Shown here in pieces: positions 453-33,353 of a stretch of 64,000 nt of DNA. The translations under genes and the position numbers were made by a program. Position 1 is the first letter of the stretch. Every line of letters begins with the position of its first letter. The notes below the pieces were generated by a model. It was not told the DNA's origin and did not search any database. It saw only the letters and a list, made by a program, of their open reading frames with translations. This DNA is from Evansella cellulosilytica DSM 2522 (GTDB lineage: Bacteria; Bacillota; Bacilli; Bacillales; Salisediminibacteriaceae), in contig NC_014829.1 of the NCBI RefSeq assembly GCF_000177235.2, positions 4,092,001-4,156,000 of the forward strand. Direction: 5' to 3'.

Positions 453-737
453 GAAAAACGTAATAACAGCTTCGTGAAGCTGTTATTACGTCTTTTCTTA
501 GAAGCGGTGAAGAAATGATGCCAAGTTTTACTTCTTTTTCTATAAAGAGGTTGTCTCATAAATGGTAGAAAGTACTGGCAATGGCTTCGTTCGTTGCGCG
601 ACTACTATGAGAAAACCACTCATAGTAGTCTTTTAAAAGATTGCAACGACTACGCACATTGCTTTGAGGCACTGAAAAAGGTAAATTTCGACCTTTTTCA
701 GTGCTCACTACTACGCGTGGCACCATTTCCACCGCCA
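453..737. repeat. 285-bp tandem repeat, copy 1
   Basis: Copy 1 of a direct repeat with a 309-base period. It contains three inverted repeats: the terminator-like hairpin at 459-490, GACTACTATGAG/CTCATAGTAGTC near 600-631, and CACTGAAAAAGG/CCTTTTTCAGTG near 670-703. Small frames inside it are not supported by ribosome sites and I do not call them genes. Confidence 0.85.
459..490 (+). terminator. Intrinsic terminator after the MMPL-type gene
   Basis: A 15-bp perfect stem (CGTAATAACAGCTTC / GAAGCTGTTATTACG) with a GT loop is followed by TCTTTTCTT. It lies seven bases past the stop codon. An exact second copy occurs 309 bases downstream as part of the tandem repeat. Confidence 0.8.
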
Positions 738-761
738 AGTTTTAAATTTCTTATCTTTTAT

Positions 762-1046
762 GAAAAACGTAATAACAGCTTCGTGAAGCTGTTATTACGT
801 CTTTTCTTAGAAGCGGTGAAGAAATGATGCCAAGTTTTACTTCTTTTTCTATAAAGAGGTTGTCTCATAAATGGTAGAAAGTACTGGCAATGGCTTCGTT
901 CGTTGCGCGACTACTATGAGAAAACCACTCATAGTAGTCTTTTAAAAGATTGCAACGACTACGCACATTGCTTTGAGGCACTGAAAAAGGTAAATTTCGA
1001 CCTTTTTCAGTGCTCACTACTACGCGTGGCAGCATTTCCACCGCCA
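762..1046. repeat. 285-bp tandem repeat, copy 2
   Basis: Copy 2 of the repeat at 453-737. I saw one difference by eye (C at 723, G at 1032). The near identity points to a recent duplication. It ends about 20 bases from the stop of the minus-strand amylase gene, so its hairpin at 978-1013 could help end that transcript, although no T-run follows it. Confidence 0.85.
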
Positions 1047-1065
1047 TAGTTTAATTTTCACTTTA

Positions 1066-22881: not shown

Positions 22882-24129
22882 TTATTCGACCTCCAAGTAA
22901 TAGCGCTCGTCAGTTTCATGCTCGGTAAAATGAAGCTTTCCTTCTTCATAAAGGATATGAGTCGTATAAAAGTCATTTAACTCCGTCAACTCACTGCCAT
23001 CCTTTTTTATCTTAAATAAATATCCACCATGACTAAAATTACTAAAATATAGCCAGTCGCCGCCAACTGCAATCTCATATGCCCTTACAGGTGCAATTTT
23101 TTTCTTATTCGTCCCGTCGATATTCATTTGATATAAGCTTTCATCATCTGTGTAGTAAATGATATTCCCGTGTCGTTGGCTATGCACTAGCTCTTCAAAG
23201 TAAGAAAATCGCGTGCTTGTTGCCTTAGGATAGTCCGTTTTTTCCCATTCGTGCGTTTGCTCTAGCTTATCATCTGTTATTAAAAAGTATTGATACGACA
23301 CTCTGCCTTCCCTATCAGGAACTGGGTCGTTCCACGTCGCATCTAGCTTATACCATTCACCATCGATATGAACTAAGTTCCATGAATGACCATTTCCGTT
23401 AGCTACGCCAACGACGTACTTCGATTCTACCCCCACTTCTCTCAGCAGTAAGTTCATTGCCTTCGTATATCCGTCGCACACAGCTACCCCATTGATGAGT
23501 GCCCCATAGGCTGTGAATGACAAAGGTGGAACTGTGTTATTTTCAAAGTTTTCATAGTCGTACACTGTGTTTAATACGACATAATCATGCAGCTCTATCA
23601 CTTTCTCTAAATCTGACATATTAGAAGAAATGAAACGATCAATGATGGTGTTTACTTTGTTGTCCAGCGCAGCACGCTTCGCTTCAATGTCCTCCTCAGA
23701 GTATAAGTAATTAAATTCTAACGTTCCGTCTGTCCAAAAATAACTTTCTTCATGATCAAAGTAAAAAATTTCAGGATGATCCTCAATAACTTGCAAGCGC
23801 GTTGCATAAACCTCCTCATGGTCCATGCTATATTGCGAAACATTGATATCTTCTTTTTGATCTAATAGTGCATGAAGTATCGCTTCATATAATGTGTCAA
23901 AGGGGAGCTGCTCCACCTCTCGCTCATACACAAGTACTTCGTCAATTGCTTGTTCTGCCGTCATTTCTTTCGATGGAGAAACGACGTTAGGTAATATTTC
24001 ACGCGTGTTGGAGGAAGAAGGCATATAGTAGCCTATTCTTTCGCTTAATCTATCCTCTTCTCCGCTTACGATGAACCACAATACTAACAACAAAGCCCCA
24101 AAGGCTATAATAGGCTTTATTTTCCCCAT
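22882..24129 (-). CDS. Membrane-anchored transglutaminase-like protein with C-terminal propeller-like domain
   Basis: One N-terminal membrane segment (about 5-22) then an extracytoplasmic part. The transglutaminase-like core (about 150-290) carries Cys218 (AVCDGY), His248 (NGHSWN) and Asp263 (KLDATWND), the standard triad. The last ~110 residues (GNIIYYTDDESLYQMNIDGTNKKKI..., WLYFSNFSHGGYLFKIKKDGSELTEL) look like DUF5050-type blades. Known relatives act as surface proteases or cross-linking enzymes; many are uncharacterised. ATG behind GGAGGTG. Function beyond the fold is not known. Confidence 0.85.
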   Translation of the reverse strand: MGKIKPIIAFGALLLVLWFIVSGEEDRLSERIGYYMPSSSNTREILPNVVSPSKEMTAEQAIDEVLVYEREVEQLPFDTLYEAILHALLDQKEDINVSQYSMDHEEVYATRLQVIEDHPEIFYFDHEESYFWTDGTLEFNYLYSEEDIEAKRAALDNKVNTIIDRFISSNMSDLEKVIELHDYVVLNTVYDYENFENNTVPPLSFTAYGALINGVAVCDGYTKAMNLLLREVGVESKYVVGVANGNGHSWNLVHIDGEWYKLDATWNDPVPDREGRVSYQYFLITDDKLEQTHEWEKTDYPKATSTRFSYFEELVHSQRHGNIIYYTDDESLYQMNIDGTNKKKIAPVRAYEIAVGGDWLYFSNFSHGGYLFKIKKDGSELTELNDFYTTHILYEEGKLHFTEHETDERYYLEVE

Positions 24130-24184: not shown

Positions 24185-24440
24185 TGCAAGCTAGTAAACT
24201 ATTTTTTTGGCTGTATTTGTGTGCTCTAGTTTCGTTTATGTTGGCAAACTATTTTTGGGTTTGCAGTGTGTGCCGCTGCGTTTATGCTAGCAAACTATAT
24301 TTTGGTTTTCCGTGAGTGCTTCGTTTCGTTTATGCTAGCAAACTAATTTTTGGTTCCTGTGTGCGCAGTTGCGTTTATGCTAGCAACTATATTTTAGTTT
24401 TCCGTGAGTGCTCCGTTTCGTTTATGCCAGCAACTATTTT
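24185..24440. repeat. Imperfect ~46-bp tandem array (about 5-6 copies)
   Basis: Copies of CGTTTATG(C/T)(T/C)(A/G)GCAA(A)CTAT followed by a T-rich and GTG-rich part begin at about 24233, 24279, 24327, 24372 and 24419, with a degenerate copy near 24189. The spacing is 45-48 bases. No coding potential. It lies immediately before the 52-bp array but has a different unit. Confidence 0.75.
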
Positions 24441-24651
24441 TGAAGTGTTGTGTTGCTAATAGTTGTTAGTGCAGTGAAAACTAGGAACTATAGGAACTCT
24501 CAACTATTATCTATTATAATATCATTTTCGAAAAAGAGGGAGATGGTATGTAGTGGAGATTACGGAGATTGGCGTCTTGCTTTGCATTTGTTTTAGGGGC
24601 AATTTTGCTTATGGTAAATGATTTTGTTGGTTGTGCTATGATTTCTTCTCT

Positions 24652-25223
24652 GAAACGGACGTTTTCTTGAGTGGTTTTCCGTTTATCGACTTATTCCTTC
24701 TATGAATGGAACGCTTTCTCGGGTAGTTTTCCGTTCAGAGACTTTTTCCTTCTCTGAACGGAACGCTTTCTCGGATAGTTTTCCTTTCAGAGACTTTTTC
24801 CTTCTTTGAACGGAACACTTTCTCGGATAGTTTTCCTTTCAGAGACTTGTTCCTTCTTTGAACGGAACACTTTCTCGGATAGTTTTCCTTTCAGAGACTT
24901 TTTCCTTCTTTGAACGGAATGCTTTCTCGGATAGTTTTCCTTTCAGAGACTTGTTCCTTCTATGAACGGAATGCTTTCTCGGATAGTTTTCCGTTCAGTG
25001 ACTTTTTCCTTCTTTGAACGGAACGCTTTCTCGGATAGTTTTCCGTTCAGTGACTGACTCCTCCTCTGAACGGAATGCTTTCTCGGATAGTTTTCCTTTC
25101 ATAGACTTTTTCCTTCTTTGAACGGAACGCTTTCTCGGATAGTTTTCCGTTCAGTGACTTTTTCCTTCTTTGAATGGAACGCTTTCTCTGGTGGCTTTCC
25201 TTTCTAACGCTTTTTCCTCACAT
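24652..25223. repeat. 52-bp tandem array, type 1 (11 copies)
   Basis: Units start with GAACGGAA at 24652, 24704, 24756 and then every 52 bases to 25172. Each holds CTTTCTCGG(G/A)TAG and, half a unit later, TTCC(G/T)TTC, which is complementary to GAACGGAA. So each unit can fold as a hairpin in two registers. There is no open frame or ribosome site. It runs without a gap into the type 2 array. Confidence 0.9.
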
Positions 25224-25772
25224 GAAAGGAATGCTAACCTACTTCATTTTCCTTTCTGACGCTTTTTCCTCACATGAAAGGAATGCTAACCTACTTCATT
25301 TTCCTTTCTAACGCATTTTCCTCACATGAAAGGAATGCTAACCTACTTCATTTTCCTTTCTGACGCTTTTTCCTCACATGAAAGGAATGCTAACCTACTT
25401 CATTTTCCTTTCTAACGCTTTTTCCTCACATGAAAGGAATGCTAACCTACTTCATTTTCCTTTCTAACGCTTTTTCCTCACATGAAAGGAATGCTAACCT
25501 ACTTCATTTTCCTTTCTAACGCTTTTTCCTCACATGAAAGGAATGCTAACCTACTTCATTTTCCTTTCTGACGCTTTTTCCTCACATGAAAGGAATGCTA
25601 ACCTACTTCATTTTCCTTTCTGACGCTTTTGCCTCTCATGAAAGGAATGCTAACCTACTTCATTTTCCTTTCTAACGCTTTTTCCTCACATGAAAGGAAT
25701 GCTAACCTACTTCATTTTCCTTTCTAACGCGTCTCCCTCCCATGAAAGGAATGCTAACTCACGCTCCTTTCA
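25224..25772. repeat. 52-bp tandem array, type 2 (11 copies)
   Basis: Units start with GAAAGGAATGCTAACC every 52 bases from 25224 to 25744 and are nearly identical. TTCCTTTC lies 25 bases after GAAAGGAA, so the arms stay complementary although both differ from type 1. Same period and layout as type 1, but higher internal identity, which suggests more recent spread of this unit. Confidence 0.9.
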
Positions 25773-25949: not shown

Positions 25950-28040
25950 ATGAGCGACTCAAATTTTAATCCCTCCATACACCCTGACATAGACAAAAAC
26001 AATTACCCATACAAAGAATTGCTAGAAAACTTTACTGAAGCAATATACGTGATAAATTTAGAAGGAAATTTCATAGATTATAATCATGGGTTTAGCTCGT
26101 TAGTAGGCCCTGGAGAAAAATATTTGCACACGAGTTTTCTTGAAATCGTGCATCCTGAAGATATTGAACTTGCAAAAAAAGGGTTTGTGCAAACATTAAA
26201 AGGCGAAGTATTACAAGATGAGCGTCTGCGAATCTATTCTATAGAAGGAAATGAAAAATCAATCGTTACGAGCAAGGTGCCTCTTTTTGGAAAAAGTGGT
26301 CAACTCGTTGGTGTTTTAGGGATTGCAAAAGACATTACAACAGAAGTGCAACTCCAATCACAAATACAACAGCAATTCCATCAATTTCGTTCTTTGCTAA
26401 AAAACTCGAGTAGCGTCAATTGTATACTATCTGCGGAAGGTAACGTCATGTACCGAAGTCCATCCATTGAAAAGGTACTAGGATACAAACCAGAAGAATT
26501 AGCTGGCCCATTTTTTACAATTGTTCATCCTGATGAGCATGATTACGTTCGTTCTCGATTTGAAAATTTACTTGAAAACCCTGATAAGCCTCAGAAGCTA
26601 GACGTACGATTGCGACATAAGGAAGGAAACTGGCGGACTGTTCACGTGATTGCCAACAACCGTATGGATGACCCTCATATTGAAGGGGTGATCATCAATT
26701 ATCATGATGTAACTGAAATGCGTGAAGCACAGCAGAAAATTCATCATATGGCGTATCATGACTATTTAACTGACTTACCGAATCGCCGCTATTTTGAAGA
26801 GCAACTAGAGGCGGAACTACAAGACGCGAAAACAAATAGAAGCAAATTAGCGGTATTATTCATTGATATTGATCGTTTTAAATTCATCAATGACACATTA
26901 GGTCACCACGTTGGCGACAAGGCATTAAAGGAAATAGCTGAAATGTTGGTAAGTCTTGTTTCCGAAAAAGATCTCATCGCTCGAATGGCTGGCGATGAGT
27001 TTATGATTTTAGTTCCTCATATTGAAGCGCTTGATTATGTTAAAGAGCTTGCCGACTCTATTTTAAAGAGGATGGAGAGCCCCATCGTTTTTGATCATTA
27101 TGAACTGTTCGTGACAGGGAGTATCGGTATATCGACTTATCCTGAATCTGGCGAAGACATAAGCGTCATCTTGAAAAATGCAGACCTTGCTATGTATAAA
27201 GCGAAGGAAACGAAAGAGAACAGTTTCGAGTTTTTTACACCAGAAATGGAAGAAAATTCTTATAAAAACTTTGCGTTGCAAAACGACTTAAGAAGAGCAA
27301 TTACGAACAATGAGTTTGAACTTTACTATCAGCCGAAAGTCTCGGCAAGTACAGAAAAAGTTGTTGGTGTAGAAGCGCTGATCCGCTGGAATCACCCTAC
27401 ATTAGGTATGGTATCGCCGGGGCACTTTATCCCAATAGCCGAAGATACAGGGTTAATTGTTCCGATAGGAGAATGGGTTTTCGATGCAGTATGTAAACAA
27501 GTAAAGAGATGGGAGAACACTGGTTTTCCACCGCTCGTTGTCTCGCTAAACTTCTCTGCTATTCAAATGCTACAAAAGGGCTTAGTGACTAAGGTGAAAA
27601 ATCTGCTTGAGAAAAATCAAGTCGAGGGGCATTGGATTGAGGTAGAAATGACAGAAAGTCTCATTCTCGAACACGACAACGATATCCTCAATAAATTAGA
27701 AGGATTAAAACAGCTTGGCATTCACATCGCCATCGATGATTTTGGTACAGGCTATTCCTCGTTAAGCTACTTGAAAAAATATAAGTTTAACACAATTAAA
27801 CTCGATAAATCATTTATTAATGATATTCATACGTCTGCTGATAACCAAGCAATAATCACATTCATCATTCAATTATCGAATCAATTGAATATGAAAGTAG
27901 TGGCGGAAGGCGTTGAAATAAAAGAACAACACGACATCTTACAAAAGCTAAACTGCGATGAATTACAAGGCTTTTACTTTAGTAGGCCGAAGCCAGTGAA
28001 GGAGTTTGAAGAACTCCTCTTAAATCAACAGCAATTATAA
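25950..28040 (+). CDS. PAS-PAS-GGDEF-EAL cyclic-di-GMP signalling protein with degenerate AGDEF
   Basis: A 696-residue cytoplasmic protein: PAS 1 (about 25-125), PAS 2 (about 145-260), GGDEF domain (about 265-430) and EAL domain (about 440-690). The cyclase motif reads AGDEF (347-351). The EAL motif is intact (475-477, EALIRW) with DDFGTGYSS and EGVE, so c-di-GMP hydrolysis is likely. AGDEF has the first Gly replaced and may be an active or a GTP-sensing variant. ATG behind TAGGAGA. It stands alone between the 52-bp array and a terminator; the PAS ligand is unknown. Confidence 0.92.
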   Translation: MSDSNFNPSIHPDIDKNNYPYKELLENFTEAIYVINLEGNFIDYNHGFSSLVGPGEKYLHTSFLEIVHPEDIELAKKGFVQTLKGEVLQDERLRIYSIEGNEKSIVTSKVPLFGKSGQLVGVLGIAKDITTEVQLQSQIQQQFHQFRSLLKNSSSVNCILSAEGNVMYRSPSIEKVLGYKPEELAGPFFTIVHPDEHDYVRSRFENLLENPDKPQKLDVRLRHKEGNWRTVHVIANNRMDDPHIEGVIINYHDVTEMREAQQKIHHMAYHDYLTDLPNRRYFEEQLEAELQDAKTNRSKLAVLFIDIDRFKFINDTLGHHVGDKALKEIAEMLVSLVSEKDLIARMAGDEFMILVPHIEALDYVKELADSILKRMESPIVFDHYELFVTGSIGISTYPESGEDISVILKNADLAMYKAKETKENSFEFFTPEMEENSYKNFALQNDLRRAITNNEFELYYQPKVSASTEKVVGVEALIRWNHPTLGMVSPGHFIPIAEDTGLIVPIGEWVFDAVCKQVKRWENTGFPPLVVSLNFSAIQMLQKGLVTKVKNLLEKNQVEGHWIEVEMTESLILEHDNDILNKLEGLKQLGIHIAIDDFGTGYSSLSYLKKYKFNTIKLDKSFINDIHTSADNQAIITFIIQLSNQLNMKVVAEGVEIKEQHDILQKLNCDELQGFYFSRPKPVKEFEELLLNQQQL

Positions 28041-31756: not shown

Positions 31757-32099
31757 ATCACTTACACTTAACGAACTAACATGAAGACATTTTTTAGGCT
31801 CTATAACAACCCAATAAATATTGTATTATAGTTAATACTGTTATTGTTCAAGATCCAACAAAACATACTATGTGTAAATAGTACTACAAGAGTATTTATT
31901 TTAGGTTTATTCCCATAAACAATCATCTGTTTTTTTATTTTTGGATATGTGTGGTAGCATAGGACATCATACTTTGAAAAATTTAGTAGATATTAGCTCT
32001 TGTTTACATTAATCACTTTCATAGCTAATTGTCTATCAAAAGACCTGGTAGAGAAGTCTTTATACAATTCCAAGGAATAAATAGCCTCTCCTGTATGAT
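31757..32099. other. AT-rich intergenic region
   Basis: No gene supported. It contains the TATAAT box noted for the small hydrophobic gene (minus strand, 31830-31825) and borders the 52-bp array. Confidence 0.4.
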
Positions 32100-32800
32100 G
32101 ACCTTCAGCTCTTCAGTTTTACTTTCTCGGGTAGCATTGGAATCGTATGTTGACCTTCAGCTTCTAAGTTTTTCTTTCTCAGGTAGCATTGGCTTCGTAT
32201 GACGACCTTCACCGCTTCAGTTTTACTTTCTCGGGCATCATTGCCTTCGTATGACGACCTTCAGCTTCTAAGTTTTACTTTTTCGGGTAGCATTGCCTTC
32301 GTATGATGACCTTCACCGCTTTAGTTCCACTATCTTGGGCAGCATTGAACTCGTATGACGACCTTCAGCTTCTAAGTTTCACTTTCTCGCGTAGCATTGC
32401 CTTAGTATGATGACCTTCAGCTCTTCAGTTTTACTTTCTCGGGTAGCATTGCCTTCGTATGACGACCTTCACCGCTTCAGTTTTACTTTCTCGGGCATCA
32501 TTGCCTTCGTATGACGACCTTCACCGCTTCAGTTTTACTTTCTCGGGTAGCATTGCCTTCGTATGATGACCTTCAGCTTCTAAGTTTGGCTTTCTCGGGC
32601 AGCATTGCCTTCGTATGATGACCTTCAGCTTCTAAGTTTTACTTTCTCGGGTAGCATTGGCTTCGTATAATGACCTTCACCGCTTCAGCTTGGCTTTCTC
32701 GGGTAGCATTGGACTCGTATAATGATCTTCACCGCTTCAGTTTCACTTTATCAGGTAGCATTGCCTTCGTATGACGACCTTCAGCGCTTCCAATTGCTAT
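32100..32800. repeat. 52-bp tandem array, type 3 (about 14 copies)
   Basis: Units start with GACCTTCA(G/C) every 52 bases from 32100 to 32776. Each contains CTTTCTCGGGTAGCATTG, with scattered substitutions. The core CTTTCTCGGGTAG and the exact period are shared with the type 1 array 7 kb upstream, but the flanking parts of the unit differ. No open frame is kept. Confidence 0.9.
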
Positions 32801-32893: not shown

Positions 32894-33142
32894 TTACGGC
32901 TTTAAATATAAGTCTGATTTATTTATTGGTGTAAATCCTTTAATGGAAGATCCATCGAACATAATATTGCCTTCCTCGATATCCTTTAACTGATCAGCTG
33001 TTACCGTTACACTTTTCATCATTCCTTCAATATCTACAAAGTGCAAATGAATGAGCTCCACATCTTTCTCTTTTATCACATCTTCTGTCACCGCGACATT
33101 GCTTTCAGACTTTACTGGACTTTGGGTTACTAACATCGACAT
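32894..33142 (-). CDS. Stand-alone N-terminal (beta-grasp) domain of glutamine synthetase
   Basis: 82 residues from ATG 33142, placed behind GGAGAGGGGAT. From about residue 23 it matches the N-terminal domain of GlnA: VELIHLHFVDIEGMMKSV, then IMFDGSSIKGF and SDLYLKP, and stops there. The FDGSS loop corresponds to the Asp50 latch that completes the neighbouring active site in GS oligomers. The catalytic domain is absent, and the bases after the stop do not continue GS in any frame I checked. It has a good ribosome site and a strong terminator. It is either a remnant of glnA or a small protein that acts on GS. Confidence 0.75.
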   Translation of the reverse strand: MSMLVTQSPVKSESNVAVTEDVIKEKDVELIHLHFVDIEGMMKSVTVTADQLKDIEEGNIMFDGSSIKGFTPINKSDLYLKP

Positions 33143-33353
33143 AAATTTTCTATCCCCTCTCCAAGTAATATTTGATAAAAACATGTGTTTGTTTATCATA
33201 AATGTTTTTTCACTACCTGTGTTAAATCGTGTTAGATAATCTACTATAGAATTTCCCCAATAAAATTCCTCCCAAAAACAATTTACAGTTATATCCAAAA
33301 GTGATTTTATAATGATATCAATAAAATATCACTAATAAACGGAGGGATATAAA

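Follow-up and report, generated by a model that had tools for sequence, protein, structure and literature searches.

Fork-oriented 52-bp palindromic tandem arrays of Evansella cellulosilytica as possible protein-binding DNA sites, with NERD-domain paralogues as candidate partners

Repeats of constant length and variable sequence have been on record in Firmicutes since 2020 and, to our knowledge, no mechanism has been given for them. Closest to the array considered here are the constant-size 52-nt repeats (Subirana and Messeguer 2021, PMC8161180; earlier J Bacteriol 2020), in which the period is the same, the sequence varies and several families occur per genome; like our arrays, they have species-specific sequences and contain short signals together with their reverse. 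This class was published as size-constant, sequence-variable and of unknown function, with a nucleoid protein or a small RNA offered as guesses, and 47 arrays of 51–53 nt were counted in B. cellulosilyticus NC_014829.1 (PMC8161180). In that 2021 paper no sequence is reported as conserved between species, nor is any association with strand, dyad parity or genes; relative to it, the fork polarity, the base-centered dyads, the TGTC-N19-GACA box and the NERD adjacency described below are additions. Our subject, an array in a 64,000-nt stretch of the Evansella cellulosilytica chromosome (positions 4092001–4156000, hereafter the window), belongs to this already published class, and what is added is the rules of the class.

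Other described systems offer partial parallels. The REP/BIME elements with their RAYT enzymes (PMC2817692) are likewise palindromes scattered through intergenic DNA, some copies of which are accompanied by an enzyme gene, and with enzymes matched to their own repeat families they are the closest functional analogy. Unlike them, the arrays studied here are head-to-tail with a fixed 52-bp period, the candidate partner is a NERD/zinc-ribbon/HTH-like protein rather than a Y1 HUH enzyme, and in the observed cases the array lies on the 3′ side of the NERD gene. CRISPR arrays are similar in their regular spacing and in combining conserved and variable parts within the unit; however, in the 52-bp arrays the variable part is itself repeated, each genome has dozens of loci, and the symmetry of the unit is that of palindromic DNA. 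Indeed, where CRISPR loci have a short constant repeat and unique spacers, here the whole 52-bp unit recurs at 88–96% identity. Finally, the tandem repeats of archaeal Borgs (PMC9879509) also have a base composition biased according to the replichore strand, but they are perfect copies, often inside genes, whereas the 52-bp arrays are intergenic and of fixed length, with diverging copies.

Tandem Repeats Finder (TRF) and a listing of the units bore out the original prediction of 22 units with a 52-bp period, falling into two blocks of equal period and different sequence (Table 1). The TRF rows 24645–25218 and 25196–25758 have scores of 817 and 1049, far above chance, and neighboring copies match at 88% in block 1 and at 96% in block 2. 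The arrangement TTCCTTTC-N19-GAAAGGAA is present in 11/11 units of block 2, and because the loop between the example arms listed in the table is odd, the dyad sits on a base pair. The array, a member of what we term family A, is located between two divergent genes, and the degenerate array just upstream of it is probably a separate, decayed repeat. The second 52-bp array of the window, which the original description does not mention, has a consensus that differs from that of the main array and is related to the published family 61_52_6; the frame beside it, judged by the match of its last residues, is a predicted glutamine synthetase fragment or fusion.

Table 1. Features of the window (for the 22-unit array, + is the pyrimidine-rich side and − the leading strand of the replichore)
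Feature	Window positions	Strand	Basis
52-bp tandem array, 22 units, family A	24645–25758	+	TRF and unit listing
Block 1, 11 units, arms GAACGGAA / TTCC(T or G)TTC	24645–25216	+	
Block 2, 11 units (last partial), arms TTCCTTTC / GAAAGGAA, 96% identical	25217–25758	+	
Example left arm TTCCTTTC, first of block 2	25197–25204	+	Direct reading; arm columns conserved
Example right arm GAAAGGAA, 19 bp from left arm TTCCTTTC	25224–25231	+	Direct reading; parity rule
Degenerate 46/92-bp tandem array just upstream of the 52-bp array	24221–24442	+	TRF
Left flank gene, transglutaminase-related lipoprotein-like (below family cut-off), 5′ end towards array	22882–24129	−	
Right flank gene, PAS-GGDEF-EAL, c-di-GMP turnover enzyme-like, 5′ end towards array	25950–28040	+	
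Second 52-bp array, 13.4 units, another family, same period and fork orientation	32093–32790	+	
134-aa frame beside second array; last 63 residues match only glutamine synthetase N-terminus	32894–33298		
Two tandem 309-bp copies, 98% identical, near window start	453–1059		

The window array is one of about fifty 52-bp arrays in the 4,681,672-bp chromosome (dnaA at position 139), which form at least five families of different sequence, all in intergenic gaps; the published consensus units 37_52_10 and 61_52_6 (PMC8161180) match arrays at 18.4 and 18.85 kb. Most families are unrelated to one another in sequence. Their unit length is fixed: among 305 units from 35 arrays of six Evansella genomes, we counted lengths of 52 (253 units), 51 (49), 53 (2) and 50 (1), placing 302/305 at 51–52 bp and 304/305 at 51–53 bp. 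Thus, arrays do not differ freely in unit length, and the closeness of the period to five helical turns of DNA, pointed out originally, is supported by this constancy. Arrays with units of 20–21, 42, 91, 101 and 185 bp occur alongside in Evansella genomes, so the 52-bp ruler belongs to this class. The 91-bp arrays are a distinct palindromic class with an AACCCGGGTT core (G000:C1:4384148–4385651, L182; 3950250–3951254, L109; 3104922–3105316, L193), and there are 184–186-bp arrays built on TGGACAAAT-type inverted repeats (L065, L130, L142 in G004 and L148 in G003). Within the 52-bp arrays, variation in the arm columns is about one fifth of that elsewhere in the unit (0.025 vs 0.119); the left arm is favored in this measure, being the anchor of the unit, and the right arm (columns 29–36), which is not the anchor, has equally low variation. 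Together with a length held constant across unrelated sequences and six genomes, this supports the original view that the array is not a random satellite. Homogeneity is high inside arrays and divergence marked between them, with rapid turnover between species. Among nine genus members compared, the family A motif is arrayed in its own genome only, and a search of 84,980 species genomes returned 17 isolated single hits and no array, on account of which its recovery in other species was given up. In its own genome, family A, including the window array, is concentrated at 3.70–4.37 Mb, around a NERD gene at 4.035 Mb.

The symmetry of the class was examined in 46 family consensus units, 27 of them published (from many species) and 19 from the Evansella genomes studied. 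Outer spans of 25 and of 27 are each represented by inverted repeats in 14 units (1.1–1.4 expected), while those of even outer span are mostly near chance. In a scored search, 31 families favor a base-centered dyad and 5 a between-base dyad, the shuffled ratio being 13:12. Perfect stems of at least 6 bp are found in 21 of the 52-bp families (2.6 expected), with odd and even loops at 20:1 (published 11:0, Evansella genomes 9:1) vs 1.25:1.4 in shuffles; as some families are related, the independent count by our own grouping is nearer 15:1. As a control, 775 other intergenic palindromes are odd in 46% of cases and prefer 4- and 8-nt loops. A recurrent version of the palindrome is the 27-bp box TGTC-N19-GACA or a one-base variant of it, which appears in eight families of seven species, namely coagulans (two families), litoralis, oceanisediminis, thermoamylovorans, alkalitelluris, E. 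cellulosilytica and G002. With the loop length left free, the 27-bp box was recovered in 100/100 of the matches listed for a G002 family and in 27/27 matches of another family in G004; the latter family adjoins no NERD gene. Several families (e.g., 4124093) have no convincing palindrome, and in family A the arms correspond to a box of 33/35 bp, not of 27 bp.

The arrays are oriented by the replication fork and not by the genes around them. GC skew puts the origin near position 1 and the terminus near 2.45 Mb; on this basis, the leading strand is purine-rich in 29/30 sampled arrays of the E. cellulosilytica genome, alike in convergent, divergent and co-directional gaps. Its purine fraction is 0.636 in arrays vs 0.525 in 404 other intergenic segments (p = 8e-16), and 80% of arrays as against 2% of such segments reach 0.6 or more. 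In 11/11 pairs of homologous arrays from opposite replichores, the orientation agrees with the fork. Similarly, for one G002 family, of which 50 forward and 110 reverse matches were counted, the rule holds in 100/100 of the matches listed (49/49 forward below 0.8 Mb, 51/51 reverse above 3.6 Mb). Loci are fork-consistent in 27/31 cases in G003 and 30/35 in G004, where the p-values are somewhat optimistic because the zone limits were set from the skew and switch points themselves. Two G004 arrays inverted relative to the rule, L125 (G004:C1:319454) and L131 (G004:C1:1413676), possibly reflect local inversions. The sole sampled E. cellulosilytica array against the purine rule is L048 (G000:C1:1177924–1178410), which has a 104-bp period, a long inverted repeat (CTATGCTGACCGTG / GACGGTCAGCATAG) and a purine fraction of 0.46. 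Origin-proximal stretches with arrays (10/39 vs 3/31 of untargeted stretches, p = 0.08) show only a trend towards excess.

Covariation of the arms, on which the original argument had leaned, is patchy. The arms of block 1 had been given as uniformly TTCCGTTC and GAACGGAA, and both arms were held to have changed together between the blocks. In the ten anchored units of block 1, the varying pair is G-C in three, a T-C mismatch in five (these combine TTCCTTTC with GAACGGAA), G-T in one and T-A in one; the complementary G-C state is thus confined to 3/10 units, and with this mixture, half of it mismatched, the arms have not simply changed together there. Joint change does hold in the sister array of family A at G000:C1:3704892, with a coupled G-C state in 9/10 units, and the other family A arrays are T-A almost throughout. 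In all, the varying positions amount to essentially one column pair and one neighboring pair. Subtypes with both halves changed occur in G003/G004 (ACCGCT...AGCGGGC and ACCTTTC...GTTCGGGC), of which only the first is complementary, so that halves can stay linked without pairing. Given the few independent changes and the mismatches in block 1, we dropped covariation as the main argument. Pairing in two registers carries no weight as evidence either, since any tandem inverted repeat has two dyads half a period apart; the near-equal loops of 19 and 17 behind this idea are real in family A. Such loops are not general in the class, and a universal 26-bp arm spacing, which holds in family A and not in other families, was discarded.

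The array had been offered either as RNA hairpins or as a phased DNA-binding array, and these alternatives fare differently. An RNA role, with the arrays transcribed as tandem hairpins acting as small RNAs, protein sponges or UTR elements, would accord with the folding of tandem consensus triples, which exceeds that of shuffled units (z −1.77 and −2.04 on the two strands, each p ~1e-7), and with the reported transcription of B. coagulans arrays (PMC8161180). However, the folding propensity is equal on both strands (p = 0.26 for the difference; 35 arrays, related families included), the odd-centered dyads are unlike ordinary intergenic hairpins, and orientation tracks the fork rather than genes. 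Moreover, the window array lies in a divergent gap where promoter- or terminator-like sites are not enriched, and neither it nor the other array regions have a match in Rfam. On the strand-neutral folding, the divergent gene context and the Rfam result we rejected the hairpin reading, and regard an RNA role more generally as improbable. Strand-neutral symmetry, odd dyads and fork-set orientation point instead to double-stranded DNA sites, the other half of the earlier proposal, which the gap context also favors.

A candidate for the protein side emerges from the gene neighborhoods. Among 104 array-flanking genes the commonest Pfam family is the nuclease-like NERD (PF08378), with four members, against a content of only 4–12 NERD genes per genome in the Evansella genomes studied. 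The four proteins combine the NERD core (QID...DIKN) with a zinc ribbon of the CxxC/CxxC type and a C-terminal tail that is HTH-like, a weak call (Pfam HTH_36, with E 0.03 in one member). All four genes have their 3′ end towards the array, at 67, 124 and 132 bp in E. cellulosilytica and at 39 bp in G003. Among genes of this close subtype, collected by a profile search, a 52-bp array follows the stop codon in 3/3 cases in E. cellulosilytica, 1/5 in G002 (starting ~264 bp past the gene end), 1/5 in G003 and 1/6 in G004 (~17 bp). The resulting total of 6/19 vs 0.12 expected includes E. cellulosilytica, where the association was first noticed post hoc, and G003 and G004, which may share it by descent, and for most NERD genes of G002–G004 the comparison covered just one or two array families; restricted to G002 and G004, which were examined after the idea arose, adjacency has p = 0.0017. 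The three NERD genes of E. cellulosilytica adjoin three different array families, that at 4.035 Mb having a family A array on its 3′ side. More than 90% of arrays, including that of the window, have no NERD neighbor, and NERD relatives sought on plasmids, phages and viral contigs were not found. In the bolder version of the proposal given below, a further NERD subtype, more distantly related, may go with the 20–21-bp arrays: its gene at 4283246–4284184 sits among 21-bp arrays, and G009, with distant-subtype genes only, has 20–21-bp arrays and no 52-bp arrays in the 200 kb sampled. The locus around the former gene (L114, G000:C1:4280001–4300000) has dense 21- and 42-bp arrays.

We propose, with a probability of about 0.5, that the array is a set of phased palindromic protein-binding DNA sites for which the NERD paralogues are candidate partners. 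The array would then be a run of cis-acting DNA sites, each 52-bp unit comprising a base-pair-centered palindrome (exactly 27 bp in several families) and a linker; with units five helical turns apart, a dimeric protein could bind every one of them on the same DNA face. We infer that a protein binds these sites and, less firmly, that the binding proteins are the NERD/zinc-ribbon/HTH-like paralogues, each of which might recognize its own array family. Repair or recombination at bound or cut sites could make arrays grow and keep them uniform, and the arrays could serve as polar chromosomal landmarks. In a bolder version, which as a whole we hold to be unlikely, the arrays are cis-elements of the NERD paralogues, one family each, the gene with the 3′ array marks the founder, and spread and homogenization result from breakage or nicking of the sites, the whole amounting to a nuclease-based counterpart of REP/RAYT polarized by the fork.

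Against the proposal of protein-bound sites one must weigh a neutral or selfish satellite, generated by slippage and unequal exchange, with template-switch correction keeping the palindromes and 52 bp being a mutational ruler. Homogeneity within and divergence between arrays, rapid species turnover and patchy arm covariation are what such a process would leave, and strand-asymmetric replication errors are compatible with the fork polarity. It does not predict arms that vary less than the spacers, base-pair-centered dyads, a single ruler for unrelated families, the recurrence of the TGTC-N19-GACA box or the NERD adjacency, and we consider it a doubtful, though serious, alternative. Much further down the scale stand REP/BIME-type elements spread by a Y1 (RAYT-like) transposase: the arrays are dispersed intergenic palindromes, two Y1 genes are among the sampled flanking genes, and one such gene of E. 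cellulosilytica (4383414) flanks the 91-bp array at 4384148, but 0/3 of its Y1 genes adjoin a 52-bp array, two of the three are without any array in the stretch examined, and the 52-bp class is sequence-variable and lacks a common terminal tag. As the Y1 genes go with other arrays, this reading of the 52-bp arrays was rejected, and we give it very little credence.

The symmetry rule, the box length, the orientation rule and a candidate protein family provide handles on the function of the 52-bp class. Should the symmetry and polarity alone hold up, the arrays would still be the likely footprint of a chromosome-organizing protein. If the NERD link is true as well, they would represent a new class of nuclease-linked repeat system, comparable to REP/RAYT, across Bacillaceae chromosomes.
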